Both the position numbers and the translations under genes were made by a program. Positions 10,088-59,022 of a stretch of 64,000 bases of DNA are shown here, piece after piece. This DNA is from Pedobacter sp. BS3. GTDB taxonomy: Bacteria; Bacteroidota; Bacteroidia; Sphingobacteriales; Sphingobacteriaceae. Each line of letters opens with the position of its first letter. Within the stretch, counting starts at the first letter, position 1. The stretch spans positions 806,001 through 870,000 of the forward strand of contig NZ_VTRT01000001.1 in NCBI RefSeq assembly GCF_008274585.1, in the 5' to 3' direction. A model generated the notes under the pieces. That model was not told where the DNA came from. It was given only the letters and a program-made list of their open reading frames with translations, and did not search any database.

Positions 10088-12007
10088 ATGGCTCGCTTAA
10101 ACTTATTAGAAGAAACCCGTTACGAAAAACTACCGGTCACTATATACCCGGACGAACATATTGCCTCAAAAAAAGTTGCCGCACGTATTGCTAACCTGAT
10201 TCGCGAGAAGCAGGAAAATAACCAACCGGCTGTTTTAGGATTAGCTACCGGGCAAACACCGGTGGGTGTTTATGCCGAGCTGGTACGTTTGCACCGGGAA
10301 GAAGGTTTGAGCTTTAAAAACGTAGTTACCTTCAACCTGGATGAGTACTACCCCATGAAGCCGGAATCAGCCCAGAGCTACGTGACTTTTATGAATGAGC
10401 ATTTATTTAATCACGTGGATATTAACCGGGCTAATGTGCATATTCCTGACGGAACGCTATCGCTGGATGAAATACCGGCTTACTGCATTGAATACGAGCG
10501 TAAAATATCATCTTACGGTGGTTTAGACCTGCAGATCCTGGGTATAGGACGTACGGGCCACATCGGTTTTAACGAGCCGGGATCAGCGCCAAATTCAGGA
10601 ACACGCCTCGTTACGCTGGATGACCTTACCCGCCGTGACGCTTCACGCGATTTTGGCGGTAAAGCCAACGTGCCCACCAAAGCCATCACCATGGGTATCG
10701 GCACCATTTTCAAGGCCCGGGAAATTATCCTGATGGCCTGGAATCAGAAGAAAGCGCCCATTATCCGAAAGGCTGTTGAAGGTGAGATATCATCCGAAGT
10801 GCCGGCAACGTACCTGCAGCTTTCGGATAAGGTTGAATTTGTTATTGATACCGACGCGGCATCAGAGTTGACCCGCTTTAAAACTCCGTGGCTGGTTAAA
10901 GATTGTACCTGGACAGATTACCTGATCAGGAAAGCAGTGATCTGGCTGGCACAACACACCGGTAAACCCATACTGAAACTCACCGAAGAAGATTACAACA
11001 ACAACGGTATGGCGCAGCTGGCAACCGAGAAAGGGCCGGTGTACGATATCAACATCCGCATTTTTAATGAGATACAGCATACCATTACCGGCTGGCCGGG
11101 CGGCAAACCGAATGCCGACGACAGCCAGCGACCGGAACGTGCAGTACCTGCCCATAAACGGGTAGTGATCTTTTCTCCGCACCCGGATGATGATGTGATC
11201 TCGATGGGCGGTACATTTATCCGGCTGGCTGATCAGGGGCACGATGTACATGTGGCTTACCAGACATCGGGCAATACTGCCGTTTGGGATGACGACGCCC
11301 TGCGCTTTGTTGAGTTTGCCATTGATTTCGGTAAATCCCAGCAATTGGATACCAAACAGCTGGAAAACCTGTATGGCAACATGCGTAATTTTGTTGCCGC
11401 TAAGCAGCCTAATCAGCCCGATCCGAAAGAAATTCTTACCGTTAAGGGCCTGATACGCAAGGGAGAGGCTATTGCAGGAGCCCGCTTCGCCGGTTTGCCG
11501 GATGATCATATTCATTTCATGGATCTTCCGTTTTACGACCGGGGTAAAGTACAGAAAAACCCGGTTGGCGAAGATGATATTCTGCAAACCATGGAGCTGT
11601 TAAGAAGCATAAAACCGCACCAGGTTTTTGCTGCCGGCGATTTTGCCGATCCTCACGGCACACACAAGATATGTTTTGATATTGTGTTAAAGGCATTGCA
11701 ACGTTTAAAAGCAACCGACGACTGGGTGAAAGATTGCTGGCTGTGGCTGTATCGCGGAGCATGGCATGAATTTGAAGTATATGAAATTGAGATGGCTGTT
11801 CCGCTATCACCTTCTGAAGTGGAGCGTAAACGCCTGGCTATCTTTAAACACCAGTCGCAAAAAGACCGGCCGGTATTTCCCGGCGACGATGCCCGCGAAT
11901 TCTGGGTACGTGCCGAAGACCGTACCCGCGAAACTGCTCATATATACGATGAGCTTGGCCTGGCCGAATATGAAGCTATGGAAGCGTTTATACGATACTC
12001 TTTTTAG
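10088..12007 (+). CDS. nagB: Glucosamine-6-phosphate deaminase fused to a LmbE/PIG-L domain
   Basis: This 639-residue cytoplasmic protein has two domains. Residues 1-290 form the NagB isomerase fold, with the ATGQTP phosphate loop (about 53-58), FNLDEYYP (Asp85) and GIGRTGHIGFNEPGS (about 152-166). It converts GlcN6P to fructose-6-phosphate and ammonia. Residues about 355-620 are LmbE-like: HPDDD at 365-369 and a PHGTH motif near residue 520, both potential zinc ligands. LmbE proteins deacetylate GlcNAc compounds, so one chain could in principle do deacetylation and deamination. This fusion is known in Bacteroidota; activity of the second domain is inferred. The neighbour anmK supports a role in amino-sugar recycling. 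Confidence 0.9.
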   Translation: MARLNLLEETRYEKLPVTIYPDEHIASKKVAARIANLIREKQENNQPAVLGLATGQTPVGVYAELVRLHREEGLSFKNVVTFNLDEYYPMKPESAQSYVTFMNEHLFNHVDINRANVHIPDGTLSLDEIPAYCIEYERKISSYGGLDLQILGIGRTGHIGFNEPGSAPNSGTRLVTLDDLTRRDASRDFGGKANVPTKAITMGIGTIFKAREIILMAWNQKKAPIIRKAVEGEISSEVPATYLQLSDKVEFVIDTDAASELTRFKTPWLVKDCTWTDYLIRKAVIWLAQHTGKPILKLTEEDYNNNGMAQLATEKGPVYDINIRIFNEIQHTITGWPGGKPNADDSQRPERAVPAHKRVVIFSPHPDDDVISMGGTFIRLADQGHDVHVAYQTSGNTAVWDDDALRFVEFAIDFGKSQQLDTKQLENLYGNMRNFVAAKQPNQPDPKEILTVKGLIRKGEAIAGARFAGLPDDHIHFMDLPFYDRGKVQKNPVGEDDILQTMELLRSIKPHQVFAAGDFADPHGTHKICFDIVLKALQRLKATDDWVKDCWLWLYRGAWHEFEVYEIEMAVPLSPSEVERKRLAIFKHQSQKDRPVFPGDDAREFWVRAEDRTRETAHIYDELGLAEYEAMEAFIRYSF

Positions 12008-30367: not shown

Positions 30368-30610
30368 TTAAAAGTTTGTTAGCGCAAGGTTGTTAGGCTG
30401 GTGTAAAAAAAGTTGATGGCTGGTGGCGAATGGTTCATGGTTCATGGCGGATAGTCCGAAAGTCGGGAAAGTCCGGAAGACCGGAAGCGAAACAAGAACA
30501 TAGAAGTAAGAGAACAAGAAAGCTCGGAAGTAGGATAAGAAAAGTTTTACGTTATAAGTTTTACGTAGTACGTAGCAGGGTGGAAAGCAGGCGACAATTA
30601 AACGAATAAT
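30368..30610 (+). repeat. Intergenic shuffled-word repeat (copy 4)
   Basis: Examples are GGTTCATGGTTCATGG, GTCCGGAAGACCGGAAG, GAAACAAGAACATAGAAG and AAAGTTTTACGTTATAAGTT. The block GGAAGACCGGAAG plus GAAACAAGAACATAGAAG (30475-30511) returns at 30890-30929 with two differences. It is non-coding and part of a 1.3-kb gap without any long gene. Confidence 0.6.
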
Positions 30611-30867: not shown

Positions 30868-31015
30868 TGGCTTATAGTCGGAAAAGTTTGGAAGACCGGA
30901 AGAGAAACAAGAACATAGAAGCAAGAGACAAGACGAAGAGGCAAAAGGTAGAAGGTTTAGGATGTAGGGCAGAAGGTGAGCTAAAAGCCTAAAGCAGAAG
31001 GCCTGAAGCGATGTG
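30868..31015 (+). repeat. Intergenic shuffled-word repeat (copy 5)
   Basis: It contains GGAAGACCGGAAGAGAAAC, AGAACATAGAAGCAAGAGAC (exact match to the minus strand near 4091), AAAGGTAGAAGGTTTAGG and GGTGAGCTAAAAGCCTAAAG (matches 8520 and, more weakly, 31345). The sequence 31016-31100 shows nothing recognisable. Confidence 0.6.
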
Positions 31016-40737: not shown

Positions 40738-40835
40738 GCGCAATCGTTCCCGGCATCGATTGCACAAATTTTTATCCTAAAACATTAATCTTTTCAGTTT
40801 TATCTCTTTAAACTTGTTTTAGGAGCTGACCAAAA
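40738..40835 (+). promoter_or_regulatory. Pectin promoter block, copy 2 (98-bp duplication)
   Basis: This 98-bp block, from operator through TAAACTTG to ACCAAAA, matches 45589-45686 with six single-base differences and no gaps. The leader after it is about 260 nt long and includes GCTAATCAATCAAT (41060-41073), which also occurs in the SusC leader (from about 45742). The rest of the leader (40836-41059) has no recognised feature; together these account for the 401-bp gap before the pectinesterase gene. Confidence 0.7.
40739..40764. promoter_or_regulatory. Pectin operator, copy 2
   Basis: The same 26-bp palindrome as at 5750 and 45590, with C in place of the first T (CGCAATCG-N10-CGATTGCA; the spacer is identical). 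It ends 44 bp before the TAAACTTG box at 40809. It lies 330 bp before the large pectinesterase gene. Confidence 0.8.
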
Positions 40836-41093
40836 CTATATTAAACAGGCCTTTGATATTATTCTTTTAAGTGAGATTCGTTCAGTTTGATGTTCTTAAG
40901 TAAAGAAATTTAATCTGTTTTGAGTATGAAAAAAGATTATTCATAAGCTTTTTTTTAACCGAATACATCATTCAATTTAATCAAGGGTATTTGCCCTGTA
41001 TGTCTATGCCGGTACCTTAAGCAGGATACCACATAAGGATAGTATTTGCCTGTAAATCTGCTAATCAATCAATAAAATAAAAACCAATAGAAT

Positions 41094-44000
41094 ATGAAAA
41101 CATTTTTTACTTTCCCACTAAGAGTATGCTTGATGTTCGTCGGGTTGTTATGTTCAACCTATGTAAAGGCTGCATCCTACGACGCTGTTGTAGATAAAAA
41201 CGGCACTGGTGATTATACTACAATACAAGCGGCCTTAGATGCCGCCCCAGCCAGCGCTACCTCACCTTACAGAATCTACATTAAAAGTGGTGTTTACTAT
41301 GAAAATCTTACTATTGCTAAGCCATTCATACAGTTTATTGGCGAAAGTGCGGCAAAAACGATTATTACATACAACAATTATAACGGTAAAGCTATCCCCG
41401 GTGGTGGGGGCACAACCTACGGTACCGCAAATTCAGCTTCGGTAATTATAACAGCCGATGATTTTAGTGCGGCCAATATTACCTTTGAAAATTCAACAGG
41501 TGACGCTCCGCAAGCGCTTGCCATAAATGTTAGCGGAGACAGAGCATCGTTCAAGAACTGCCGGTTCTTAGGTGGTCAGGATACTTTTTTGGGATATAAT
41601 TCCAAGTATCCGCAATCACTATATAAATGTTATATCGAGGGTGTTGTCGACTTTATTTTCGGGAATTCTAAAACCGTTTTTGATGAATGTACCATTTACG
41701 CCAGGGACAGGTCTGATAACAACGGAAGTTACATAACCGCGTCCAATACCCGCGAAACAAGGGGTTTTGTTTTTAGAAATTGCGAAATTATAGCCAACAG
41801 AGGCACAACCAAATATGTTTTAGGCAGGCCATGGCAAAATGATGCCAATACAGCATCAGCGGATAAATCTACCGCGGCAACAGTATTTATCAATACAAAA
41901 ATGAGTTCTGTTGTAAAACCGGAAGGTTGGTCGGTTTGGGATGCCGGAACAGATGTTTCCAAAATTATTTATGCCGAGTATAATTCTATGGATATGAGTG
42001 GTGATCCGTTGGATGTTTCTTCACGTGTATCGTGGTCTAAGCAGCTTAACAGCACAGAGGCGGCAGAATACCTGGATAATTCGGTGATGTTTAAAGACCG
42101 GAATAACAACATCTGGGATCCATATTCGGTTTTTCCGGATGGTCAGGATGTGCCGGTAAACAGGCTTGCCATCTCTAATTTTAAATATGTAAAGAGCGGC
42201 ACGGAATTAACATTTACCTGGAACCTGAATTGGCCAGAAAGTAACGTAACCTACAAGCTATACCGTATAACAGACGGTGGAGCGCCTGTTCTGGTAAATG
42301 AACAAACCATTGCGGATAACAATGTGAATGTATCTTACACTCCCGCAACCGGTAAAGAAACGGTTCCACCCTCCATGTCAACTTATGAATATTATGTAGA
42401 AGCCAGCTCAGCAAACGGAACCGTACGTTCAGAAAGTGTAATGATATCGGCTATACCGGTAATTAACTTAACAGGTACGCTACAAGCATTTAAACAAGGA
42501 AGTGATGCGCCTTCGCAATCGCAGCCTATTACTATTAGCGGAGAATATTTGCAGGAAAATGTAACCATTACCCCTCCTGCAAATTTTGAAGTAAGCGCCG
42601 ATAACGGTACAACCTGGTACAATTCGGCTAATCCGTTGATACTCAACATAAGCGGCGGGTTATTAACTTCCAAAACTGTTCTGGTGCGTTTGAATGCATC
42701 TGCTGCAGGTACAAGTACCGGTAATTTAACTATTGTTTCGGGCACCGGCAGTCATAACAAAAGTATCGCGGTAAGCGGCGAAACGTATGACCATCCTTTG
42801 GTAAACAGCCAGTCAATAGCCAGCCTTTCTTTAGCTCAAAATGCCGGTGCAACCTATCTTAAAGAAGGCCTGGAATCGGCAAACCTGGACCTGAATACCT
42901 ATATCTTGTCTGATAAGACCTCAGGTACAAACATCCCTTATTCTACTGATTATGGCATACAGTTTGGCCCAACAGCAGCCGGTGGCGGTTGGAATGATAA
43001 TGCCATTAAAAACATGACGGATAAGTCCAGATACATAGAAATTACACTGAAAACCGCGTCAACCCACGAAGCACGGGCAGATTCGTTATTATTTAACCTT
43101 GCTGTTTTTCAAACCACAGGCAATTTCGCATTAGAATATTCAACAGATGATTTTGCTACAAGTACATTATTGCAGAATACGCTTTTAAATGGTTCGCCGG
43201 TAGCAGGTACTACATATGGAAGCTTTACCAATGGTGCATTTGCGCTGGCCAATCAAAACACGGGAGCCAAAAGATACGCGTTTGCCTTGAACGGTGCTAC
43301 AGGCGTACGGGTTGCTGCCGGCGAACAGCTAAAAGTAAGAATGTATTTCAGAACAGGCAGTTCATCTGATGGCAGGTACATTACACTTAAAGACATTGAT
43401 TTTAAAGGAAGTGTTGGTCTGGCGGCAGCTGAAGGCGATTATAAAACCGTAAGCAGCGGATCGTGGTTAGACGTTTCTATCTGGGCCCAAATGGTAGGCG
43501 GGGTTTGGACTGCGGCGGCTACTCCTCCGCATTACGGCACAGGACATACCTCGTTTATAGAATCAGGACATATTGTAACGGCGCCTAACAGTACCGACTT
43601 AAATACGGCTTACAATAGTTCGTATGGTTATGTAAATTCCACTGTAGTGAGAGAAGGTGGTAAGCTAATTGTTGAAAGCGGAAAAACCATGAATGTACAC
43701 CATGATCAGCTTTACCAAATTGATGGTGAGCTTGAAAATAACGGAACCATAAATAACGATGGTAAATATGATCTGATCATTAACGGAACGGTAACTAATA
43801 ACGGCACGCTAAAGGTAGATCAAACCGGAAGCAATGTGTATATTAAAGGTAAGCTGATCAATAAGGCATCGGTTAACTATAACTATGTGACTGTAAAAGA
43901 TGGTGGTGTTTATGAGCACGCTGCAAACTCAAACACTATGCCTGCAACCATTACTTTTGAAGACGGCTCTACTTTCCTTATTTCAGGAATAACAACCTCT

Positions 44001-45485
44001 CAAACAGGTATATTGAAAAATACCATCAGCTATTACAACGTAACCTGGGATAATCCGGGGCAAACCAAATATTATGCTTTCCAGGGAAACCTGGTGGAGA
44101 ACATTCGTGGCAAGTTTACAGTTAACAACACCGGTTCACAATATTTAGCTTTATTGAATGCTAATGGTACTGTTGGTCTGGGAAGTTATGAACAAAACGG
44201 TGGCAGGGTGCTGGTGCGAGAAAACAGTACGGTAAATGCGGTAATTAATGTTGCCGGAGATTTTATGGTGAACGGGGGTACATTGGAGTCTAACTCCGCC
44301 GTTTCGGTTGAAATTAACCTGAAAGGCGCTGATAGTAAATATCAATATAATGATGCCACAAATTTGCTAACAGGGCTAAAGATAGATGTAACCGGCAATT
44401 ACACATTACAATCGCCTTTAACTGTTAATAATTTAAACATAGCTGATGGTAAGATCACTTTGGGTGATAACACCTTAACAGCAAGTACAGTTGCCAGAAC
44501 GGGTACCGGCTATATTGTTACCAATGGAGCAGGAACATTGACTGTTAAGAGTGTTGGCCCAACCGATGTTCTGTTTCCTGTTGGTACGGCATCGGGTTAT
44601 AATCCACTTATTCTTTCTAATACCGGAACCATAAGCGACTTTGCGGTTAAAGTTAAAACCGGGCTTGATCATACCTTACCCAGCAACAATTCAAAATCAG
44701 TGAATCTGCAATGGGATGTTACGCCAGCTACAGCAGGAGGAAAAGTAGACATTACTTTTCAGTGGAATACCGCCGACCAGAACAGTGGCTTTGATATAGC
44801 TTCGCCGGTAGTAGCCGCTAATTATCATAACGGCAGTTATGTGGGATATACCGCAACGGTAAGCGGTTCAAACCCTTATATGGCAAAAATTACCGGGATT
44901 GACATATTTAGCCCTTTTGTAGTTGCCAACGAGTTGGCCCTGCCGCTAAAAATGCTATCGTTTACAGCAAAATTAACTCAACAGTTAACGCCTTCGGTAG
45001 TATTAAACTGGCAAACTGCCGATGAAGTAAATACTTCAAATTTTGAAGTTGAACGTGCAGGTGCAGACTTAGTTTTCGTTAAAATTGGGTCGCAGTCGGC
45101 GTTTAATACTTCGGGAACTAACAATTATTCATTCACAGATGTAATGCCTATGGATGGCACCTCTTATTACCGTATTAAGCAGGTGGATTTGGATGGCAAG
45201 TACAGCTACAGTGGCATACGAGCTGTAGAAAATGCCGGTACGCTAAAATTAGCCTTATATCCTAATCCCGTTTCAGAAAAATTAAGTATTCAATGCGGAA
45301 AAGTAAGCGGTAATACCCAGATCCGTATTATAAGTATTGACGGGAAGGTTGTGTTCACATCAGGTACAATTAATGCGCTATCGGCACCTTATACAGTTGA
45401 TGTTTCGGGATTAAAGGCCGGATTTTATTCCGTGCTGTTTACAAGTGGCAATAACAAACTATCTGGCGCTTTCATAAAGCAATAA
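41094..45485 (+). CDS. Large modular T9SS pectinesterase (CE8)
   Basis: This is a 1463-residue secreted protein. The signal peptide is about residues 1-26. A CE8 pectinesterase domain fills about 28-340, with the catalytic motifs GGQDTFLG, GVVDFIFGNS and YVLGRPWQND. A fibronectin-like region follows (about 355-455), then beta-rich domains including ITPPANFEVSADNGTTWYNS and, from about 780, a glycan-binding-like beta-helix rich in NGT/NNGT repeats. The last 80 residues start LALYPNPVSEKLSI and form a type A sorting domain, so the protein exits through the type IX system and is bound to the surface. It is 4-5 times longer than usual CE8 enzymes. Own operator-driven promoter; strong terminator after it. 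Confidence 0.9.
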   Translation: MKTFFTFPLRVCLMFVGLLCSTYVKAASYDAVVDKNGTGDYTTIQAALDAAPASATSPYRIYIKSGVYYENLTIAKPFIQFIGESAAKTIITYNNYNGKAIPGGGGTTYGTANSASVIITADDFSAANITFENSTGDAPQALAINVSGDRASFKNCRFLGGQDTFLGYNSKYPQSLYKCYIEGVVDFIFGNSKTVFDECTIYARDRSDNNGSYITASNTRETRGFVFRNCEIIANRGTTKYVLGRPWQNDANTASADKSTAATVFINTKMSSVVKPEGWSVWDAGTDVSKIIYAEYNSMDMSGDPLDVSSRVSWSKQLNSTEAAEYLDNSVMFKDRNNNIWDPYSVFPDGQDVPVNRLAISNFKYVKSGTELTFTWNLNWPESNVTYKLYRITDGGAPVLVNEQTIADNNVNVSYTPATGKETVPPSMSTYEYYVEASSANGTVRSESVMISAIPVINLTGTLQAFKQGSDAPSQSQPITISGEYLQENVTITPPANFEVSADNGTTWYNSANPLILNISGGLLTSKTVLVRLNASAAGTSTGNLTIVSGTGSHNKSIAVSGETYDHPLVNSQSIASLSLAQNAGATYLKEGLESANLDLNTYILSDKTSGTNIPYSTDYGIQFGPTAAGGGWNDNAIKNMTDKSRYIEITLKTASTHEARADSLLFNLAVFQTTGNFALEYSTDDFATSTLLQNTLLNGSPVAGTTYGSFTNGAFALANQNTGAKRYAFALNGATGVRVAAGEQLKVRMYFRTGSSSDGRYITLKDIDFKGSVGLAAAEGDYKTVSSGSWLDVSIWAQMVGGVWTAAATPPHYGTGHTSFIESGHIVTAPNSTDLNTAYNSSYGYVNSTVVREGGKLIVESGKTMNVHHDQLYQIDGELENNGTINNDGKYDLIINGTVTNNGTLKVDQTGSNVYIKGKLINKASVNYNYVTVKDGGVYEHAANSNTMPATITFEDGSTFLISGITTSQTGILKNTISYYNVTWDNPGQTKYYAFQGNLVENIRGKFTVNNTGSQYLALLNANGTVGLGSYEQNGGRVLVRENSTVNAVINVAGDFMVNGGTLESNSAVSVEINLKGADSKYQYNDATNLLTGLKIDVTGNYTLQSPLTVNNLNIADGKITLGDNTLTASTVARTGTGYIVTNGAGTLTVKSVGPTDVLFPVGTASGYNPLILSNTGTISDFAVKVKTGLDHTLPSNNSKSVNLQWDVTPATAGGKVDITFQWNTADQNSGFDIASPVVAANYHNGSYVGYTATVSGSNPYMAKITGIDIFSPFVVANELALPLKMLSFTAKLTQQLTPSVVLNWQTADEVNTSNFEVERAGADLVFVKIGSQSAFNTSGTNNYSFTDVMPMDGTSYYRIKQVDLDGKYSYSGIRAVENAGTLKLALYPNPVSEKLSIQCGKVSGNTQIRIISIDGKVVFTSGTINALSAPYTVDVSGLKAGFYSVLFTSGNNKLSGAFIKQ

Positions 45486-45503
45486 ATTCTTATTTAGAAG
45501 GAA

Positions 45504-45543
45504 GTATAGCCCGAATTCTGCATTGGCAGAATTCGGGCTATAC
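45504..45543 (+). terminator. Perfect 18-bp hairpin terminator
   Basis: The arms GTATAGCCCGAATTCTGC and its exact complement close over ATTG. It lies 19 bp past the pectinesterase stop and insulates the SusC operon promoter. The T-run after it is short (TATTTAAGG). Confidence 0.8.
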
Positions 45544-45588
45544 TATTTAAGGCAGGGTTAACAGTAATGAAAATACCCCACTTTATTT

Positions 45589-45686
45589 GTGCAATCGTTC
45601 CCGGCATCGATTGCACAAATTTTTATCCTGAAACATTAATTTTTTCGGTTTTATCTCTTTAAACTTGTTTTAGGAACTAACCAAAA
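45589..45686 (+). promoter_or_regulatory. Pectin promoter block, copy 3 (98-bp duplication)
   Basis: Duplicate of 40738-40835, with six substitutions. The TAAACTTG box (45660-45667) is 95 bp before the SusC ATG. This is the promoter of the susC-susD operon. Confidence 0.7.
45590..45615. promoter_or_regulatory. Pectin operator, copy 3
   Basis: Identical over all 26 bp to the site at 5750. Here the palindrome continues outward (ATTTG / CAAAT), giving 13-bp arms from 45585 to 45620, the longest of the three. It ends 44 bp before the TAAACTTG box at 45660. Confidence 0.85.
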
Positions 45687-45762
45687 AAGGACTTATAAAT
45701 TGCAAAAACATCAGGTAAGAATTACAGTTAACTGTATTTCGGCTAATCAATCAATTATAAAT

Positions 45763-48700
45763 ATGAAACACGTATTACTTCTTTTCGGTATGCTGTTATT
45801 TCTCGTTTCAGGTGTATATGCCCAAACGCAGCAGGTAACAGGTAAAGTAACAGACAAAACCAGTAACGAGCCGCTTATTGGTGTTAGCATTACAATTAAA
45901 GGAACTACTAAAGGCACGTCTACAGATGCTGATGGAAAATTTAAATTATCGGCGCCCTCAAATGCTGTATTAGTCATCAAATATATCGGATATAAAACCC
46001 AGGAGGTTTCGGTTTCCGGTAAATCCGATTTATCCATTAAAATGGAAACCGCTAACAGCCAGTTAGATGAAGTAGTGGTAATTGGATATGGCACGGTAAA
46101 AAAGAAAGATCTTACAGGCGCAGTTTCATCTGTCAGTGCTGAAACAATATCGGCAGCACCGGTATCATCGGCCCTTGAAGCTATTGCAGGCCGCGTTTCA
46201 GGAGTAAATATCACTACAACAGAAGGTTCTCCCGATGCAGAAATGACCGTACGGGTGAGAGGAGGGGGATCCATTACACAGGATAACTCACCATTATACA
46301 TTGTCGATGGATTCCCGGTAAGCTCGATTGATGATATTGCTCCATCAGATATAGAATCTATTGACGTCTTAAAAGATGCTTCGTCGACCGCAATCTATGG
46401 TTCACGGGGTGCAAACGGTGTAGTTTTGGTTACCACCAAAAACAGTAAAACAGGTAAAACAGCTGTTAGCTATAATGTATTTACCGGGGTAAGAAATCTT
46501 GCTAAGAAAATAGACGTATTAACACCGTATGATTACGCTACCTGGCAATATGAGCGCTCTTTACTTGCCACAAATAAAACAGATGATTACACCAAGTATT
46601 TTGGTAATTACCAGGATATTGATTTATACGCTACCGTACAACCTAATGATTGGCAGGATATTGTTTTTGGCCGCACAGGAAATACGTACAATCAAAACTT
46701 AACCATTAGTGGTGGAAGTGATAAAACAAAATTCAGCCTGAGCCATAGTTTTGTTAAGGATAAAGCCATCATGTTGCTTTCTAACTACGAAAGACAAAAT
46801 ATCAACTTCAAACTAAATCACAAATTGTATGACAAACTTACGCTGGATATTGGCGCACGTTATGCCGACACCAAAATAAACGGAGGTGGCGCCAATGAGC
46901 AAAACGAAGTTTCATCAGCAGATTCCCGTTTAAAATACGCCATGATCTACCCACCATTTCCGGTAACAGGTCTAACTAATTCGGACGAAACAGATGACAG
47001 CTTTAACCTGTACAACCCGGTAGTGGCTATTTCAGATAATGATCAGTATATCCATCGTAAAACCTACAATTTAAATAGTGCGCTTACTTACGAAGTGGTT
47101 AAAAACCTGAAACTCCGCTCAGAAGTTGGTTATGATGGTTATAGAAATGATCAGGACCGGTTTTACGGTACTACCACTTACTATGTAAAAAACATTCCTG
47201 CTGGAGATTATCAAAATCTGCCTGCTGTCATTTTTGCCAATACCAGCCGCAACAGCTTTAGAAATACTAATACCTTAAATTACGATTTTAAGAAATATAT
47301 AAACAAAGATCATAGTTTGAACCTCTTATTGGGAGAGGAATATATTAAAACCATAGAAGGTACATTAACGGATGTGGTACATGGATTTCCAGAATCGTTT
47401 ACTTTCGATGATGCCAGGAGATTATCTACCCAGGGGCTGGCAAACTCTATAGATAATAACTTTTTGCCTGATGATAAGCTATTGTCTTTTTTTGGCAGAG
47501 CAAATTACAGTTATAAAGATAAATATTTGCTTAGCGCCACTTTCAGGGCTGATGGATCTTCAAAATTTTCTAAAGGAAACCGTTGGGGATATTTCCCGTC
47601 CGTTTCGGGAGCATGGAGAATTTCGCAGGAAAGTTTTATGGAAGGAACTAAGTCCTGGCTGGCTGATTTAAAATTACGGGCCAGTTATGGTGCTGCAGGT
47701 AATAATAATATTTCTTCAGGCCAGATGGTACAATCGTTTAATAACTCCACTACTTCCTGGGTTAACGGGTATAATAACTATTGGGCTCCTTCTAAAACAA
47801 TGGCTAACCCCGATTTAAAATGGGAAACTACGGTTACCAGAAATGTCGGGTTTGATTTTTCACTGCTGAATTCTAAGCTTAATGGTACAATTGATGCCTA
47901 TCTTAACCGAACAAAAGATTTACTTGTTCTTTATCCGGTGCCCGGAACAGGTTATGATAACCAATTCCGTAATATAGGTGAAACAGAAAATAAAGGCCTG
48001 GAGTTTTCTTTGAATTGGAGTGCTATCCGGAAAAAGAACTTTGATCTGTCAGTGAATGCCAACATTAACTTTAACAGAAATAAAGTGATCTCGATCGGAG
48101 GACTTGAAAATATTCCTGGTAAATCAGATTGGGCATCGTCTGAGATCGGTACGGATTACCTGATATTAGCAGGTGCTTCAGTGGGACGGATATATGGCTA
48201 CCAAAGCGATGGCAGATATGAGGTTTCAGATTTTAGCGGCTACGATTCAGCTACCGGAAGATGGACATTAAAACCCGGTGTGGCAGATGATAGCCCGGTT
48301 ATCGGTACTGTGCGTCCCGGATCGATGAAATTAAAAGACATTGTTGACGATGGCGACGGTAAAGTAAATGAATCAGATAAAACTTTTATAGGTAATACTA
48401 ATCCCTTACATACCGGCGGTTTTTCAATTACGTCACGAATTTATCAATTTGATATAGGCGCTTATTTTAACTGGAGCTATGGTAACGATGTATATAATGC
48501 TAATAAAATTGAATATACATCTACCAGTAAATACAATTCCAGGAATATGATCGCGATGATGGCAAGTGGCAATCGCTGGACAAACCTGCGTGCCGATGGT
48601 ACCATCAGCAATGATCCGGCCGAACTTGAAGCCATGAATGCCAATACAACCCTGTGGTCGCCATATATGAGCCGGTTTGTTCTAAGCGACTGGGCAGTAG

Positions 48701-48951
48701 AAGATGGTTCTTTTCTACGTTTATCCACCATAACGCTAGGTTATACGCTACCTAAAGCCATATCTTCTAAATTGAAAATGAAAGGCTTACGAATATATGC
48801 TTCGGGTTATAATTTATGGTTATGGACCAATTATTCCGGCTTTGATCCGGAAGTGTCAACCCGCCGCAAAACACCGCTTACACCGGGTGTAGACTATTCA
48901 GCCTACCCCAAAAGCAAATCTTATGTATTCGGTCTGAATGTTAACTTTTAA
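45763..48951 (+). CDS. SusC-like TonB-linked outer-membrane glycan importer
   Basis: This 1062-residue protein starts at the ATG at 45763 with a signal peptide (FLVSGVYAQ). A CarboxypepD_reg domain comes next, then the SusC signature DEVVVIGYGTVKKKDLTGAV. The plug domain contains VRVRGGGSITQDNSPLYIVDG and KDASSTAIYGSRGANGVV. A large beta-barrel ends SYVFGLNVNF. With the SusD lipoprotein 12 bp downstream it forms the import pedal-bin complex for oligosaccharides. The neighbouring pectate lyases make oligogalacturonides the likely substrate. A longer reading from a TTG at 45700 adds 21 residues and would hide the signal peptide. Confidence 0.95.
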   Translation: MKHVLLLFGMLLFLVSGVYAQTQQVTGKVTDKTSNEPLIGVSITIKGTTKGTSTDADGKFKLSAPSNAVLVIKYIGYKTQEVSVSGKSDLSIKMETANSQLDEVVVIGYGTVKKKDLTGAVSSVSAETISAAPVSSALEAIAGRVSGVNITTTEGSPDAEMTVRVRGGGSITQDNSPLYIVDGFPVSSIDDIAPSDIESIDVLKDASSTAIYGSRGANGVVLVTTKNSKTGKTAVSYNVFTGVRNLAKKIDVLTPYDYATWQYERSLLATNKTDDYTKYFGNYQDIDLYATVQPNDWQDIVFGRTGNTYNQNLTISGGSDKTKFSLSHSFVKDKAIMLLSNYERQNINFKLNHKLYDKLTLDIGARYADTKINGGGANEQNEVSSADSRLKYAMIYPPFPVTGLTNSDETDDSFNLYNPVVAISDNDQYIHRKTYNLNSALTYEVVKNLKLRSEVGYDGYRNDQDRFYGTTTYYVKNIPAGDYQNLPAVIFANTSRNSFRNTNTLNYDFKKYINKDHSLNLLLGEEYIKTIEGTLTDVVHGFPESFTFDDARRLSTQGLANSIDNNFLPDDKLLSFFGRANYSYKDKYLLSATFRADGSSKFSKGNRWGYFPSVSGAWRISQESFMEGTKSWLADLKLRASYGAAGNNNISSGQMVQSFNNSTTSWVNGYNNYWAPSKTMANPDLKWETTVTRNVGFDFSLLNSKLNGTIDAYLNRTKDLLVLYPVPGTGYDNQFRNIGETENKGLEFSLNWSAIRKKNFDLSVNANINFNRNKVISIGGLENIPGKSDWASSEIGTDYLILAGASVGRIYGYQSDGRYEVSDFSGYDSATGRWTLKPGVADDSPVIGTVRPGSMKLKDIVDDGDGKVNESDKTFIGNTNPLHTGGFSITSRIYQFDIGAYFNWSYGNDVYNANKIEYTSTSKYNSRNMIAMMASGNRWTNLRADGTISNDPAELEAMNANTTLWSPYMSRFVLSDWAVEDGSFLRLSTITLGYTLPKAISSKLKMKGLRIYASGYNLWLWTNYSGFDPEVSTRRKTPLTPGVDYSAYPKSKSYVFGLNVNF

Positions 48952-48963
48952 TAGAGTCAGGAA

Positions 48964-50739
48964 ATGAAAAAGATCATCAATATATTATTCATAATTACAG
49001 GGATTGCTTTTATAAGCAGTTGTAAAGACACGCTGGAAGCTCCTACCAAATCATCTTTGGATGAATCGGTTATTTTTTCTACCCCCAGCTTGGCTGAAGG
49101 AGCCATTGCTGGTGTTATCCAATCATTTGCAGAAACTAACTCATACCGTGGCAGATTTTTAGTTTACTATGGTATCAATACGGATGCTGAGGTATATAAC
49201 AGCTTAAAATCAGTAGATGATGATAAGGCCCGGTTATCAAACTATAATACCAACGTGAATAACTCTCAAATGAACACAAACGATAATGTGTGGGCAAAGC
49301 TTTATGAGGGCATTGAGCGGGCTAATTTAGCAATCAGAGGATTAAGAACCTATGGACATGTTGAAAGCAACCCGCAGTTGGCGCAAATATTAGGCGAAAT
49401 GCTAACCTTAAGGGCTGTAGTGTATAGTGACCTGGTAAAAGCATGGGGAGATGTGCCTGCCAGGTTTGAGCCGGTAACTTCTGCTACCGCTTACCTGCCC
49501 CGAAGTGATCGGGACGTTATTTATAAACAACTGCTTGTTGATCTGGATTCGGCCGCCAATTTGCTACCCTGGCCTAATGAAACATCAACCACAACTTCGG
49601 TTGAGCGTGTAAATAAAGCGTTTGCCAAAGGCATGAGAGCACGTATAGCCTTAGCTGCTGGTGGATACGGACAACGCCCGGATGGTATTCGTTTAAGTAA
49701 TGATCCTGATTTGGCCCGCGAAAAGATGTATACTATTGCAAAAAATGAATGTCTGGACATCATACAAAGCGGGAAGTTACACTTGCTTGGTTTTGAAGAA
49801 CTTTTTAAAACTTTAAATCAGGAAACTGGTAAAGCCGGTTTGGAATCGATGTGGGAAATCCCGTTTAGCGAAGGCCGCGGTAGGGTGATTTTTGATTTAG
49901 GTGTTAAACATACTACAACCGATAAATATACCGGACAGGCCAAAGGCGGTACGAATGGACCTAATCCCATTATGTTTTATGAGTATGATAAAGACGATGT
50001 TCGTCGCGATGTTACCTGTGTTCCTTATGAATGGACAAGCGGCGTACAGGTTCCGACTAACTTAAATAAATGGTATTTTGGAAAATACCGTTACGAATGG
50101 ATGTCAAGGCGGGTAACTTCTACTAATGATGATGGTCTGAACTGGCTTTACATGCGTTACGCTGATGTACTGTTAATGGCAGCGGAAGCGATCAATGAAT
50201 TAGATGGCCCAACCGCGGCAGCGCCGTACTTAAAACAGGTGCGGGACAGGGCTTTCCCGAACAATCCTGAAAAAGTTGCTCAATATATGTCTGAAGTTAC
50301 AGCAGATAAACCAACCTTTTTCAATGCCATTGTTAACGAAAGAGCCTTGGAATTTACCGGCGAAATGTTACGGAAGTCCGACCTGATTCGCTGGAATTTA
50401 TTAAGCGCCAAACTAAATGAGGCCAAAACAAAATTGCAGCAGCTTGAAAACAGGCAAGGCCAATATGCTGACCTTCCTGCAAAAATTTATTACAAAACAG
50501 CCGCCGATGGAGAAACCGTACAAATTTATGGCTTAAACCACGGCGATACTGATGCACAGGGCGCCTCGTTAGGATATACATCAAATAAATCATGGAAATT
50601 ATCTTCTGACGGAGATGTTGTTACCTATTGGGATGCACTTTTCCGGAGAAACCCGGATACACAGCAGTACTGGCCGATCTGGCAAACATTCTTAGATTCA
50701 TCTAACGGCATGTTAAATAATAATGGTTATAACTTTTAA
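48964..50739 (+). CDS. SusD/RagB-like glycan-binding lipoprotein
   Basis: This 591-residue lipoprotein has a lipobox Cys20 (IAFISSC followed by Lys-Asp). The SusD fold of TPR-like helices is seen in the N-terminal half (LRAVVYSDLVKAWGDVP, MRARIALAAGGYGQ) and the C-terminal family segment NYMRYADVLLM-like (LYMRYADVLLMAAEA) with ERALEFTGEMLRKSDLIRW. It binds the oligosaccharide and closes the SusC barrel. Gap to SusC is 12 bp and to the next gene 11 bp, so the three genes are one operon. Confidence 0.95.
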   Translation: MKKIINILFIITGIAFISSCKDTLEAPTKSSLDESVIFSTPSLAEGAIAGVIQSFAETNSYRGRFLVYYGINTDAEVYNSLKSVDDDKARLSNYNTNVNNSQMNTNDNVWAKLYEGIERANLAIRGLRTYGHVESNPQLAQILGEMLTLRAVVYSDLVKAWGDVPARFEPVTSATAYLPRSDRDVIYKQLLVDLDSAANLLPWPNETSTTTSVERVNKAFAKGMRARIALAAGGYGQRPDGIRLSNDPDLAREKMYTIAKNECLDIIQSGKLHLLGFEELFKTLNQETGKAGLESMWEIPFSEGRGRVIFDLGVKHTTTDKYTGQAKGGTNGPNPIMFYEYDKDDVRRDVTCVPYEWTSGVQVPTNLNKWYFGKYRYEWMSRRVTSTNDDGLNWLYMRYADVLLMAAEAINELDGPTAAAPYLKQVRDRAFPNNPEKVAQYMSEVTADKPTFFNAIVNERALEFTGEMLRKSDLIRWNLLSAKLNEAKTKLQQLENRQGQYADLPAKIYYKTAADGETVQIYGLNHGDTDAQGASLGYTSNKSWKLSSDGDVVTYWDALFRRNPDTQQYWPIWQTFLDSSNGMLNNNGYNF

Positions 50740-50750
50740 TTCATACTATT

Positions 50751-52310
50751 ATGAATACAAACAAAATATATATAATTATCGCTTTCCTAGCTGGTATAGT
50801 AAGCTTATCCGGTTGTAAGGATGATGTGTTGTCCGAAATAACTACCTTAAACGTCAATAGAGCCTTTTCTCCAACTGGATTAACTGCTCAGGTAGTTAAT
50901 AAAACAGGAGTAAAGTTGACATGGAAAGCCGTAAATAATGCTAATTCTTATACCATAGAGATTTTTGACAATGTAGATTTTTCCGGTTCGCCGGTAAAAA
51001 CTATCTCTGATATTTCATTTAGTCAGGTACCTTACACTGTTACTGGTCTTGCTGGAGAAACCCAATACGCAGTAAGAGTAAAAGCTATTGGTGAGAATAT
51101 TGATGACTCTAAATGGGTAACAGCTACATTTGCTACCGATGCAGAGCAAATCTTCCAGGCGGTCGATCCGGATAAGCTAACTGCAAACTCGGTTACACTG
51201 AACTGGCCTGCAGGAGAAACAGCAACCTCTATAGTGCTCACGCCGGGAAATATTACGCATACGGTTACCAGCACTGAAATTACTGCCGGAGAAGCCACTA
51301 TTTCAGGCCTGACCGGAGAAACTACCTATACGGCTAAGCTAATGAATGGCACTAAGGTTCGTGGTACCATAACATTCACTACCTTAATAGATTTAGGCGG
51401 AGCGATCCCTGTTTCTCCAACAGATAACTTAGCAACATTAATTGCAAATGCCACCGGAGGCGAGACTTTTGCCCTGTTACCAGGAGCTTATACCATTAAT
51501 GCCGATATTACTGTTAGTAAATCTATATCCATTAAAGGTGCAAAGCCCACAGATAGGCCGGTTATTACCGGGGCAGTTTTCAGGATAAAGGCTAACGCTG
51601 CTTTTGCGTTAAAAGATGTAGTGCTTGATGGCACAGGAGCGTTAAATAATAACCAGGCTATTATATATGATGAAGCTTCAGATAATGCGTATGGCAATTT
51701 AAATGTACAGGGTTGTGAAATTAAAAACTATGTAAAAGGCATTATATATGTAAACGTTAAAGCCCTGATAGAGTCAGTAAACTATAGTGATAACATTATT
51801 CATGATATCAAATGTGATGGTGGTGATTTTGTTGACTTTAGAAATGGTATAGCAAAAACATTCCTTTTCCAAAACAATACGGTTTATAATAGCAGTAGCG
51901 CTGGTTCAGCCAGGGATATCTTCCGTATGGACGCAGGAGGATCAACAAATTTCCCAAGTATAAATAGTGTGATAAATATATCGAATAACACCTTTAATAA
52001 GATTCCGGTTACTGATGGTAAATCCCGTATGCTATATATCCGCTTAGCGAATCATGGAATTACTTTTTCTAAAAATATTATAGCTAACTCGGGGGCATTT
52101 TATAGTGATCAGGCTGCAACGCATGTCGTTGCTATGGTTGCTAACAATTACTTCAATGCGCCCAAGTTTATTAATGAAGCCACATCTAAAATTAATGATG
52201 CTAATGGTACAACCCTCGACCCTGGCTTTAAATCTCCTGATAGTGGCGATTTTACATTAAGTAATGACGATTTAAAATTAAATGGTATTGGCGCCGCAAG
52301 ATGGCGTTAA
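50751..52310 (+). CDS. Surface lipoprotein with FnIII and DUF4957/DUF5123-like domains
   Basis: This 519-residue protein has lipid Cys22 (VSLSGC followed by Lys-Asp-Asp). One or two fibronectin type III domains follow (about 40-215; SPTGLTAQVVNKTGVKLTWK and LTANSVTLNWPAGE). A right-handed beta-helix makes up the rest (about 225-519; FALLPGAYTINADITV, ISNNTFNKIP, ITFSKNIIAN), as in DUF4957 and DUF5123. Such proteins are regular third members of pectin SusCD operons and are thought to bind pectin at the surface; catalysis is not shown. It ends the transcript: a terminator follows. Confidence 0.85.
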   Translation: MNTNKIYIIIAFLAGIVSLSGCKDDVLSEITTLNVNRAFSPTGLTAQVVNKTGVKLTWKAVNNANSYTIEIFDNVDFSGSPVKTISDISFSQVPYTVTGLAGETQYAVRVKAIGENIDDSKWVTATFATDAEQIFQAVDPDKLTANSVTLNWPAGETATSIVLTPGNITHTVTSTEITAGEATISGLTGETTYTAKLMNGTKVRGTITFTTLIDLGGAIPVSPTDNLATLIANATGGETFALLPGAYTINADITVSKSISIKGAKPTDRPVITGAVFRIKANAAFALKDVVLDGTGALNNNQAIIYDEASDNAYGNLNVQGCEIKNYVKGIIYVNVKALIESVNYSDNIIHDIKCDGGDFVDFRNGIAKTFLFQNNTVYNSSSAGSARDIFRMDAGGSTNFPSINSVINISNNTFNKIPVTDGKSRMLYIRLANHGITFSKNIIANSGAFYSDQAATHVVAMVANNYFNAPKFINEATSKINDANGTTLDPGFKSPDSGDFTLSNDDLKLNGIGAARWR

Positions 52311-52372: not shown

Positions 52373-53833
52373 ATGCGAAGACTCAACTGTAGTTTGATTA
52401 TTTTGGTATTTGCTTTAACAACTTTTTTTTCTTGTAAAAAATCTAAAAAAGAAGATACCGGCGGAAGTAATAATCAAAATAATGATAAGCCGGTGCAGGT
52501 TGTAGAAACCGCTTACGCCTTTCCCGGAGCCGAAGGATTTGGTAAGAATACCACCGGTGGACGTGGTGGCAAAGTTATTAAAGTAACCAACCTTAATGAC
52601 TCCGGTTCAGGCAGCTTACGCGAAGCCATCAATACCAGCGGAGCCCGCATTATTGTTTTTGAGGTATCCGGGAATATTCAGCTAAAAAGCCGCTTACAAA
52701 TTAAAAATGGCGACGTAACTATAGCCGGGCAAACTGCTCCCGGCGATGGGATCTGTATCCAGAATTACGAAGTACAGATCGATGCCGATAATGTGATCGT
52801 AAGGTATATGCGTTTTCGTCTCGGGGATTTAACCCAGCAGGAAACAGACGCATTCTGGGGCCGTAATCATCAGAATATCATTATTGATCATTGCTCCATG
52901 AGCTGGTCTATTGATGAAACCTCATCATTTTATAACAATAAAAACTTCACCATGCAATGGTGTATGCTTTCAGAAAGCCTGAATAAATCCTTTCACGAAA
53001 AAGATGATCATGGCTATGGGGCAATCTGGGGTGGCACTAATGCAAGTTTCCATCATAACCTGCTGGCTAATCATTTAAGCCGGTTACCAAGGTTTAATGG
53101 CGGCTTACGTTCGGGTATTGACCCCGGGCCGTATGGAGGCGATTTGGTTGATTACCGGAATAACGTAGTATATAATTGGGGCGACAACAGCAGCTATGGC
53201 GGCGAAAATGGTAAATACAATATTGTAAACAACTATTATAAAGCCGGTCCGGGAACAGCAACCAGTAAAACAGCCCGTTTGCTGGATGTTTATTTTGATA
53301 ATTCGGTAGCTTCTCCAGGATACGGGCAGTTTTTTATTAGTGGTAATTACATGAACGGCAGTACGTCGGTAACAGCCGATAACTGGACTGGCGTAGCCTA
53401 TAAAACCGGTGCTTCAATGAGCCTTTCAAAAGTAAGCTCGCCTTTTACTGATGAAAATATTACCGGGCAAACAGCAGAAAGTGCTTTCGCTTTGGTTTTA
53501 AGTTATGCCGGTGCCAGTTTCAAACGAGATGCAGTAGACAGCCGGATAGTCAATGAAGTTCAAACCGGCACAGTAACTTACAGTGGTTCTAAAACCGGCC
53601 GGAAGGGCATCATCGACTCACAAGCCGACGCTGGCGGCTGGCCCGAATTAAAATCGCAGCCGGCGCCGCTTGATACCGATGGCGACGGTATGCCCGATGA
53701 GTGGGAAACAGCCAATAAGCTCGACCCGAAAAAAGCCAATGCCAATAGCCACGATCTAAGCACCGGCTATGATAACATTGAAGTATATCTGAACAGCCTG
53801 GTGAAAAACATTACCCAAAATCAGGCACAATAA
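52373..53833 (+). CDS. Pectate lyase 1 (PL1), lipoprotein
   Basis: This 486-residue protein has lipid Cys21 (FALTTFFSC followed by Lys-Lys) and a Lys/Asp/Asn linker, so it is membrane-anchored. The parallel beta-helix begins AFPGAEGFGKNTTGGRGGKV and includes IIIDHCSMSWSIDET, with the Ca-binding Asp residues, and LSRLPRFNGG, with the likely catalytic Arg. It cleaves de-esterified homogalacturonan by beta-elimination. Near the C-terminus DTDGDGMPDEWE is an EF-hand-like Ca loop. It is followed 5 bp later by a close paralog. Confidence 0.9.
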   Translation: MRRLNCSLIILVFALTTFFSCKKSKKEDTGGSNNQNNDKPVQVVETAYAFPGAEGFGKNTTGGRGGKVIKVTNLNDSGSGSLREAINTSGARIIVFEVSGNIQLKSRLQIKNGDVTIAGQTAPGDGICIQNYEVQIDADNVIVRYMRFRLGDLTQQETDAFWGRNHQNIIIDHCSMSWSIDETSSFYNNKNFTMQWCMLSESLNKSFHEKDDHGYGAIWGGTNASFHHNLLANHLSRLPRFNGGLRSGIDPGPYGGDLVDYRNNVVYNWGDNSSYGGENGKYNIVNNYYKAGPGTATSKTARLLDVYFDNSVASPGYGQFFISGNYMNGSTSVTADNWTGVAYKTGASMSLSKVSSPFTDENITGQTAESAFALVLSYAGASFKRDAVDSRIVNEVQTGTVTYSGSKTGRKGIIDSQADAGGWPELKSQPAPLDTDGDGMPDEWETANKLDPKKANANSHDLSTGYDNIEVYLNSLVKNITQNQAQ

Positions 53834-53838: not shown

Positions 53839-55170
53839 ATGAAAGCAATTTTTCTCCTGTTAACACTGTTTGTTAACGTTTTATATGCACAGGTTCCGGC
53901 TTTTCCCGGGGCCGAAGGATTTGGGAAATATACTACCGGTGGTCGTGGGGGTAAAGTGTTGATGGTAACCAACGTGAACGATAGTGGCCCCGGCAGCTTA
54001 CGCGAAGCAGTAAAAGCCAACGGCCCGCGAATAATTGTTTTCACGGTTTCAGGCACAATTGCGTTGCAATCTCCGTTAAGCATTAAAAACGGTGATGTCA
54101 CCATAGCCGGTCAGTCAGCTCCCGGCGATGGTATTTGCCTGAAAAATTATACCACGCATATTGATGCCGACAATGTGATCATCCGTTACATCCGTTTCCG
54201 CCTGGGCGATGAATCTAAGCAGGAAGACGATGCCATCAATAGTACACATAACCATCGCGACATTATTATCGATCACTGTTCCATGAGCTGGTCGGTAGAT
54301 GAATGCGCTTCTTTTTACCGGAACCATAATTTTACCCTGCAATGGTGTATTATTGCCGAGGCGCTGAACCATTCCGTGCACAGCAAAGGGCCGCACGGTT
54401 ATGGCGGTATCTGGGGTGGCGAGGGAGCCAGCTATCATCATAACCTCATTGCATGCAACAACAGCCGCAATCCCCGTTTCAGCGGCTCGTCAACTACCCT
54501 GAACCCCGAAGATGAGCTGGTAGATTTCAGTAATAACGTGATTTTTAACTGGGGGCAAAACAGCAGCTACGGCGGTGAAAAAGGACGTTACAACATGGTA
54601 AACAATTATTACAAGCCCGGCCCGGCAACATCCAAAAGCAAGCGCCAGCGTATGATGAATCCCTGGTCGCCTTACGGGAAGTTTTACATTGCCGGCAATA
54701 TAATGGAAGGGAGCAAAGAAGTAAGCGCAGACAACTGGAAAGGCGTAGAATATGAGCACGGTCAATCTACCGATTCAACATACACAGATAAACCGTTCCC
54801 GGTAGCAGCTATCAGCCTGCAAAAAGCACACAAAGCCTACACAGATGTACTGGCCAAAGCCGGCGCCAGCATAACCCGCGATGCTGTGGATAAACGCATC
54901 ATAGAAGAAACCCGCTTGGGGATGGCTACCGCAGGAGTCAATAAAAACGGGCTGATAGATTCGCAGAATGATGTAGGTGGCTGGCCCGAATTAAAATCTC
55001 TACCAGCTCCGGCTGATACGGACAGGGACGGTATGCCCGATGTCTGGGAGAAAAAAATGAAGCTTGATCCCGCTAAAGCCAATGCAAACGGTCGTGATTT
55101 AGACAAAAACTACGATAATATTGAAGTTTACCTGAATAGCCTGGTCCCCCTTACAAATGTAGCAGGCTGA
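53839..55170 (+). CDS. Pectate lyase 2 (PL1), secreted paralog
   Basis: This 443-residue enzyme has a plain signal peptide (LLTLFVNVLYAQ), so unlike its neighbour it is not a lipoprotein. It repeats the same landmarks: FPGAEGFGKYTTGGRGGKV, IIIDHCSMSWSVDECA, NSRNPRFSGS with the catalytic Arg, and near the end DTDRDGMPDVWE and YDNIEVYLNSLVP. The gene starts 5 bp after the first lyase, so they are co-transcribed and come from a tandem duplication. Different anchoring suggests a division between surface-bound and periplasmic or released activity. Confidence 0.9.
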   Translation: MKAIFLLLTLFVNVLYAQVPAFPGAEGFGKYTTGGRGGKVLMVTNVNDSGPGSLREAVKANGPRIIVFTVSGTIALQSPLSIKNGDVTIAGQSAPGDGICLKNYTTHIDADNVIIRYIRFRLGDESKQEDDAINSTHNHRDIIIDHCSMSWSVDECASFYRNHNFTLQWCIIAEALNHSVHSKGPHGYGGIWGGEGASYHHNLIACNNSRNPRFSGSSTTLNPEDELVDFSNNVIFNWGQNSSYGGEKGRYNMVNNYYKPGPATSKSKRQRMMNPWSPYGKFYIAGNIMEGSKEVSADNWKGVEYEHGQSTDSTYTDKPFPVAAISLQKAHKAYTDVLAKAGASITRDAVDKRIIEETRLGMATAGVNKNGLIDSQNDVGGWPELKSLPAPADTDRDGMPDVWEKKMKLDPAKANANGRDLDKNYDNIEVYLNSLVPLTNVAG

Positions 55171-57816: not shown

Positions 57817-59022
57817 ATGACCTTTAAAAAGGCAGTTGGCAAAATACACCTCTGGCTCGGATTAGCGTCCGGGCTGGTGGTGTTTATTGTGAGTATTACG
57901 GGCTGCATCTTCGCTTTTCAAAAAGAGATCAGCGAAGCCGTAGAGCGTGATCTGTTTTTTATCAAGCCACCGTCAGCACAGGCGCAAACGCTACCGCTAA
58001 GTACCTTATTACAGCGGGCAGAAGGTGCACTGGACGGTAAGGTTTACCCCAATTTTATTACCAGCTACCGCAGTCCCGACCGTACCTGGGAATTTATGGC
58101 CTATAAAGATGGCGATGAAAAAGCATTTACCTTTTTCGGAACAGTTGATTATTATAAATCAGCTTTTGTTAACCCGTATACAGGTGAAATTACCGGTATA
58201 AAAGATTATAAATATGATTTTTTTACCGTTATTAAATACCTGCACTGGAGCCTGTTGTTAAATACTATCTATGGGCAGCCCATTGTAGGCTGGTCTACGT
58301 TTATTTTTGTTATCATGCTGATAAGCGGCCTCATTTTATGGTGGCCAAAGAAGTGGAATAAAACCAATATTCAAAAGAGCTTCAACATCAAATGGTCGGC
58401 GAAGTTTAAGCGTATAAACTACGATCTGCATAATGTGCTTGGCTTTTATGCCATGCTGATAACGTTGATACTTGCCTTCACCGGGCTGGTATGGGCATTC
58501 AGCTGGTTTCAAAGCGCAGTGTATGTGGTTGCGTCGCAATCGGTGACTCCTCCGCAGCATAAAACAGTAAAGTCAGATACCACTGCGGTTGCTGTAAAAA
58601 CTCCGCTCGATATTGCTTTCAGAACAGCTCAAAACACATTTCCGGAGGCAGAGCGTATCGGAGTATCTCCGGCAACGGGAAAAGAAGGCCTTATCTATAT
58701 ATACGGCTATCGCGATGAGGAAACCTATTACGATGCCGATGGGCTGCAATTTGACCAATATACCGGTAAGCTGCTTAACCGCGAAAACTTCAAAGACGGC
58801 AACGCCGGCGAAAAACTCATCTCCATGAATTACGATATTCATGTGGGCGCTATTCTCGGTCTCCCCGGAAAAATCATTGCCTTCTGCGCCAGCCTGATAG
58901 CCGCCAGCCTGCCTGTAACCGGGTTATTGATATGGCTCGGAAAAGGCAGGAAAAGCGCTAAGCGCTCAAAGCGAAGAGTTATTCATCGCCTGCGTTTTGG
59001 TAAGGCTGTCAGTGCATCCTGA
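57817..59022 (+). CDS. PepSY-associated membrane protein
   Basis: This 401-residue inner-membrane protein has four transmembrane segments: near 14-34 (LWLGLASGLVVFIVSITGCIFAF), about 155-172, about 200-225 and about 345-368. Two periplasmic PepSY-like regions lie between them. The C-terminus is highly basic (KGRKSAKRSKRRVIH). This family (PiuB-like) sits next to siderophore receptors and is thought to help reduce or release iron in the periplasm. The ATG is 3 bp after the receptor stop, so the genes form an operon. His residues in GKIHLWLG and KYLHWSLL could bind heme or metal. Confidence 0.9.
   Translation: MTFKKAVGKIHLWLGLASGLVVFIVSITGCIFAFQKEISEAVERDLFFIKPPSAQAQTLPLSTLLQRAEGALDGKVYPNFITSYRSPDRTWEFMAYKDGDEKAFTFFGTVDYYKSAFVNPYTGEITGIKDYKYDFFTVIKYLHWSLLLNTIYGQPIVGWSTFIFVIMLISGLILWWPKKWNKTNIQKSFNIKWSAKFKRINYDLHNVLGFYAMLITLILAFTGLVWAFSWFQSAVYVVASQSVTPPQHKTVKSDTTAVAVKTPLDIAFRTAQNTFPEAERIGVSPATGKEGLIYIYGYRDEETYYDADGLQFDQYTGKLLNRENFKDGNAGEKLISMNYDIHVGAILGLPGKIIAFCASLIAASLPVTGLLIWLGKGRKSAKRSKRRVIHRLRFGKAVSAS

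Follow-up and report, generated by a model that had tools for sequence, protein, structure and literature searches.

Regulon growth is usually ascribed to operators that arise through point mutation. Matus-Garcia et al. (2012) reportedly described putative mobile promoters, in which a non-coding sequence of promoter length is found at more than one place in one genome. The available parts of PMC8049555, PMC11111574, and PMC5890482 describe three kinds of event: a promoter can be duplicated within its genome or captured through a tandem duplication, and a regulatory region can pass from one genome to another. A tandem duplication or deletion can give a gene an adjacent promoter without long homology (PMC11111574, citing Anderson and Roth 1978), and in horizontal regulatory transfer (Oren et al. 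2014) an intergenic regulatory region is replaced by a non-homologous one (PMC5890482). KdgR and UxaR are Bacteroides LacI-family regulators of glucuronate and galacturonate pathways in Bacteroidetes, as stated in the accessible text of PMC3878776. Our literature search, which left subscription journals mostly outside, found no paper on the operator described below, which is no claim of absence; the accessible parts of PMC3870299, PMC5306329, and PMC12125979 had no bearing on it. Pedobacter sp. BS3 appears to have copied a pectin-uptake promoter in front of a pectinesterase gene, and a comparable event seems to have taken place independently in a second species.

The window is the whole stretch of DNA that was analyzed, 64,000 nucleotides of contig NZ_VTRT01000001.1 (positions 806,001 to 870,000), and its promoter elements, hairpin, and genes given here with coordinates lie on the plus strand. 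Positions 40738-40835 and 45589-45686 align over 98 bp without gaps and with six substitutions, exactly at the coordinates that a first-pass annotation had given beforehand. An independent repeat finder reports the pair as 40740-40835 and 45591-45686 at 95%, and a BLAST search of the block in the genome returns the second copy with E = 3.7e-37. These two are the only long copies in the 4.8-Mb genome, 4.85 kb apart; six further matches with E <= 0.001 span 27-38 bp around operators (13 of 49 candidates scored). Outside the block, identity is at background (0.10-0.40 per 20 bp). The match ends abruptly, on the left at the operator edge and on the right just past GACCAAAA/AACCAAAA. The block consists of a 26-bp palindromic operator of the TGCAATCG-N10-CGATTGCA type, a -7 box TAAACTTG 45 bp past the 24-bp operator core, and a short tail. 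In a pattern search, the operator has one mismatch in the first copy (40739-40764) and is exact in the second (45590-45615); the boxes lie at 40809-40816 and 45660-45667. Downstream of the first copy is a 1463-aa pectinesterase with a C-terminal T9SS sorting domain (41094-45485; Pfam PF01095, PF18962), and downstream of the second is a SusC-type TonB-dependent receptor (45763-48951; Pfam). A non-coding promoter sequence is repeated in one genome before non-homologous genes. The annotation had claimed the gapless alignment, its coverage of operator, spacer, and TAAACTTG, and the unrelatedness of the two coding regions, and all three are borne out.

A perfect 19-bp hairpin past the pectinesterase gene (45503-45544) is a terminator candidate (fold z = -7.5 for 45486-45590). 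It could separate two transcription units, though no long T run (U in the transcript) follows it. The susC gene is followed by genes for a SusD-type protein (48964-50739; Pfam) and for a DUF4957/DUF5123/fn3 protein (50751-52310; Pfam), the third in a susCD run whose order is the same in L077, L079, and L080. Behind them are tandem genes for two pectate-lyase-like proteins, 52373-53833 and its paralogue 53839-55170 (71% DNA identity over 251 bp). Neither has a Pfam match at the default cut-off, and the NCBIfam PelZ match is far below the model cut-off. Elsewhere in the window, a 53-bp direct repeat (30461-30513 and 30876-30928, 91% identity, 415 bp apart) lies between VWA-domain and TonB-receptor genes.

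With up to three mismatches, the operator pattern occurs at nine places in the genome versus two for the reversed control: the two block promoters, 5750, C24:58405, C24:58515, C1:560511, C21:126296, C25:33831, and C23:41568. Judging from the look of the protein starts, the first eight have pectin-related genes downstream; the ninth, with three mismatches, is probably due to chance. The two C24 operators (G000:C24:58405-58428 and 58515-58538) both precede a T9SS-tailed pectate-lyase-like gene; they are separated by 110 bp and form the only close double site among the nine. Operators were searched for in 22 genomes, and 60 sites from 14 of these, among the matches listed, were compared; G135, G154, G194, G197, G224, G248, G308, G317, and some sites of the 14 with one or two mismatches fall outside this sample. 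The distance from operator to box is nearly fixed. Among the oriented sites that have a reading frame downstream, 107 in number, TAnnnTTG follows the operator core at 45 bp in 47 cases, at 46 bp in six, and at 44 bp in one, against 2.8 expected from shuffles in the 40-50 window and none in 36 orientations without a reading frame. When each distinct site is counted once and both sides of it are considered, the box is present at 44-46 bp for 59 of 77, and in a 15-genome set, mostly pattern-derived, 44 of 68 loci have it at 45 or 46 bp. The counts of 107 and 77 leave out sites that lie closer than 400-450 bp to the end of a locus. All of these counts treat close species as separate, so that sites are not independent, and some loci were chosen by DNA similarity to the block, which can favor box-bearing sites.

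Activators that contact RNA polymerase typically bind at a set distance upstream. The Bacteroidetes sigma-A -7 box has the consensus TAnnTTTG and spans -12 to -5, as given in the available part of PMC9723704, and the block boxes TAAACTTG are one base off this consensus. Because of that span, the operator center would lie near -69.5. A LacI N-terminus is encoded within 450 bp of 21 of the 77 sites, linking the palindromic operator to this family. The BS3 orthologue (G000:C1:65423-66436; L119:7424-8437), which has a Pfam LacI match, is itself not beside an operator: none was found within 400 bp upstream of it, the best match having eight mismatches. It lies about 785 kb from susC, which it adjoins in five relatives. 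LacI relatives with E <= 1e-100 are found in 260 of 399 genomes and operators with up to one mismatch in 162 of 399, so the two coincide imperfectly. In G030, a LacI homologue (G030:C6:93442-94458) reads through one in-frame TGA and is possibly a broken regulator; this genome keeps the operator before susC. From position and adjacency, we infer that the regulator of this operator is a LacI-type activator. The orthologue at C1:65423 would bind the 26-bp palindrome centered near -69.5. It would most likely activate promoters with the imperfect box TAAACTTG rather than TAnnTTTG on pectin breakdown products, activation being favored because the distance from operator to box is nearly fixed.

The two genes differ in what precedes them in relatives. 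Nine susC loci were collected, of which L077 (Pedobacter boryungensis), L079 (Sphingobacterium corticibacterium), and L080 (S. siyangense), 65-71% identical, were used; L078 comes without upstream sequence, and L081-L085 are distant (28-50%). In all three orthologues, an operator followed by TAnnnTTG precedes susC, as it does for susC homologues in G001, G025, G030, G003, and G076, and a divergent lacI stands beside the operator in five of these eight loci (L077, L080, G001, G025, G076). A scan of the distant loci L081-L084 found no operator near the start. The first-pass annotation had proposed comparing the same promoters in related genomes. In this comparison, the relatives' susC promoters share little with either block copy beyond the operator, nearby T-rich bases, and the box, in support of a duplication of the promoter itself.

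A search of 398 other genomes yielded six full-length orthologues of the large pectinesterase, a seventh that is truncated by a contig end, and a partial relative in G184. The one other genome of the genus in this set lacks a full-length orthologue and encodes only shorter pectinesterases (363- and 330-aa frames, about 42% identical), so it offers no dating of the copy. No operator was found within 700 bp upstream of any of the six or of the 458-aa G184 relative, the best matches having 6-8 mismatches; the cut orthologue, L110 (G408), was excluded from this comparison. All six lie at other places than the BS3 gene, behind other genes with T9SS-like tails. The gene run that contains the pectinesterase gene is headed by an operator in G125 (three mismatches) and G062 (two mismatches), and G076 has an operator-led susC run on the strand of the pectinesterase gene, far upstream of it. 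For G321, G132, and G152, the stretches read around the gene contain no operator, and none was found genome-wide at up to one mismatch. Because the relatives' susC genes carry operator and box and the pectinesterase orthologues lack a close operator of their own, the ancestral promoter, and hence the donor, is probably that of susC (45589-45686), and the pectinesterase copy is probably derived and the recipient (40738-40835). In some relatives, the pectinesterase gene belongs to the same regulon. The suggestion that the copying served to bring a new gene into the regulon is accordingly supported as to the copying but too strong as to recruitment. Since the gene already follows operators in G125, G062, and G076, the copy may instead keep a relocated gene under control; since G321, G132, and G152 show no operator near it or, at up to one mismatch, genome-wide, recruitment is also possible.

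We consider it quite probable that a duplicate of the pectin susC operon's promoter came to lie 4.85 kb upstream, before the large secreted pectinesterase gene, in a capture that went with relocation of that gene. The duplicated unit would comprise the operator, the 45-bp spacer, the -7 box, and probably the leader end. The capture, with susC as donor, would have accompanied the move that put the pectinesterase gene between rarA and susC, and the copy would give it the same switch as the uptake system. The likely route is a local tandem duplication or a template switch, not a mobile element. A 4.85-kb segment of pectinesterase gene plus promoter may instead have been inserted at the susC promoter, Campbell-type or imported, with the direct repeat as a by-product. 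This course of events is the less likely one, but it deserves consideration: the layout is repeat-gene-repeat, lacI, a frequent neighbor of susC, is about 785 kb away here, and the orthologues are patchy, six full-length and one contig-cut among 398 genomes. The third-position G+C of the pectinesterase gene (0.37) and of susC and susD (0.35-0.39) sets the whole cluster apart from rarA (0.54). However, the pectinesterase gene is like susC and susD in this respect, so composition does not decide, and a Pfam scan of window proteins, which covered 29 of the 45 ORFs listed, showed no transposase.

How far the duplication extends was examined in the leaders. The word GCTAATCAATCAAT lies at 41060-41073 and 45742-45755, in both leaders as had been claimed, and the genome has no other exact occurrence of it. 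Allowing up to two mismatches gives 58 matches, against 22 when the word is reversed as a control; words of this kind are thus moderately common. The alignment score of the whole leaders is matched by 1 of 1000 simple shuffles. The leader interiors from the block to GCTAATCAATCAAT, 55 nt for susC and 224 nt for the pectinesterase gene, do not align beyond chance, with 924 of 1000 shuffles reaching their score; one clean copy reaching the start codon is thus not demonstrated, and a copy of the full leader was rejected. A structured RNA in the pectinesterase leader is unsupported (z = -0.92). The sharp block edges and the unmatched leaders would also fit a gene-conversion tract that made two older promoters alike and created no new one, and both genes could have had operators before. 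We regard such conversion as rather improbable, since no operator was found within 700 bp upstream of the six orthologues, so that nothing points to an earlier promoter of this type at the recipient gene.

Promoter duplication is set apart from shared function by the 71 bp past the operator. The block copies are equal at 66 of 71 positions, and the other 257 oriented operator sites reach at most 42 of 71 against either copy (259 distinct sites compared, up to four mismatches allowed, close species counted separately). Because of this difference, the block match is not explained by shared regulation, and the claim that the promoter itself, not the operator alone, was duplicated is supported. 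Among 19 operator promoters from this genome and relatives, pairs with either copy score 23-41 and the remaining pairs at most 42. Among 538 within-genome oriented pairs (68 loci in 15 multi-site genomes, 14 of them chosen as multi-operator or g18 genomes), the BS3 pair ranks first, at 63/71 in that frame, one pair from S. corticibacterium (G320) scores 61/71, and all others are at or below 40. Between-genome pairs in the same test reach 71/71, as should be expected for orthologous promoters of close species. BLAST of the block in other genomes gives matches of 67-80 bp at 73-77% in G033, G077, G083, and G408; spacers were scored in G033 and G408, where the matches span 79-80 bp at 74-76%, yet the spacers agree at only 42/71 and 32/71.

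The third operator in the window (5750-5775, exact) precedes a second pectinesterase gene (5856-6839; Pfam). Its 26-bp operator is identical, and TAAACTTG lies 44 bp past its 24-bp core, but its spacer matches at just 33/71, inside the range of other regulon promoters. The proposal that this site, which has operator and box in common with the block, arose separately or is older, in that case much older, is supported. The sequence CTCAAAAAAGCCGA is found in the 5750 promoter (5788-5801) and beside one C24 operator (L016, G000:C24:58509) at a similar distance beyond the operator; it may reflect chance, a terminator remnant, or a trace of another copy.

The close species of genus g18 offer a rough measure of age. 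Two orthologous spacers agree at 68/71 and 71/71 between G018 and G119, whose compared proteins are 91-100% identical (one compared in part), and at 62-65 and 59 of 71 between G106 and these two. The level of the BS3 pair, 66/71, is about that of close-species divergence, which places the duplication as recent relative to the split from G001 (RarA 84% identical) but not brand new. An old duplication, or convergent promoters, could in principle have been held alike by purifying selection on the full 98 bp, and the operator, the T-rich stretch directly after it, and the box do recur across many promoters. This explanation is very improbable, given that other operator promoters stay at or below 42/71 against either copy and that orthologous promoters of close species, at 59-71/71, are at the level of the BS3 pair. 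A mobile or dispersed repeat element, a reading for which nothing beyond the two copies speaks, was rejected as having next to no likelihood: just two long copies were found in the genome (13 of 49 candidates scored), 4.85 kb apart rather than dispersed, the window has no inverted repeats of at least 40 bp, and across the 398 other genomes of the family, with two candidates scored in each, the best matches are the operator with short extensions or the 67-80 bp at 73-77% in four genomes.

A second case is found in S. corticibacterium. On G320:C4 (L230:1068-1265 and 10310-10503), the operator, promoter, and leader of a GH88 gene, together with about 26 of its codons, are repeated 9.2 kb downstream before an Sde182_NH-like (nucleoside-hydrolase-like) gene. 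The copies are identical at 188 of 198 positions with seven gap positions, and the copy extends into the signal peptide. Single versions match the first copy at 190/203 (G112) and 187/203 (G227) and the second at 183/197 and 173/197, which makes the duplication about as old as the split from G112. The two cases come from 15 genomes of which 14 were picked, and do not give a rate. A further candidate in g18 (L007, L060, L068), read as one promoter before different genes, was rejected: the first genes of G018 and G119 are 91.5% identical over 189 aa and differ in the N-terminus. Near 2.2 kb in L231, L232, and L233 (G018, G119, G106), nearly the same promoter precedes a first gene whose N-terminal part differs in each.

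Seen separately in BS3 and S. corticibacterium, copying of complete regulated promoters could be a recurrent route by which the pectin regulon is rewired, although we advance this only tentatively. The copied unit would be the operator, the fixed 45-bp spacer, the -7 box, and sometimes the start of a signal peptide, and the rigid geometry of a LacI-type activator may make copying a whole promoter easier than evolving operator and box de novo. A rigid operator-to-box distance hinders the point-mutation route, and two lineages seem to have copied a finished promoter. With hundreds of family genomes and a recognizable operator, the frequency of copying versus the birth of new operators can be counted directly.

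The BS3 case resembles the intragenomic propagation of putative mobile promoters reported by Matus-Garcia et al. (2012), in that a promoter-length sequence is repeated within one genome. It differs in having just two copies and a unit that includes a specific operator with fixed spacing; the copied unit therefore carries regulation, not expression alone. Its repeat-gene-repeat layout fits promoter capture by tandem duplication, but the capture in the available part of PMC11111574 was laboratory-selected, whereas the BS3 event is read from a natural genome and its mechanism is putative. As in horizontal regulatory transfer, an intergenic regulatory region would have been replaced by a non-homologous one; unlike the transfer described in the accessible text of PMC5890482, source and target are in the same genome, 4.85 kb apart. 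The proposed regulator belongs to the LacI family, as do KdgR and UxaR, but, set against what the available part of PMC3878776 describes, the Sphingobacteriaceae operators head susC and secreted pectinase genes, and the -7 box follows them at a fixed distance. BS3 is a natural example in which a whole regulated unit was copied, a known kind of event in a new setting.
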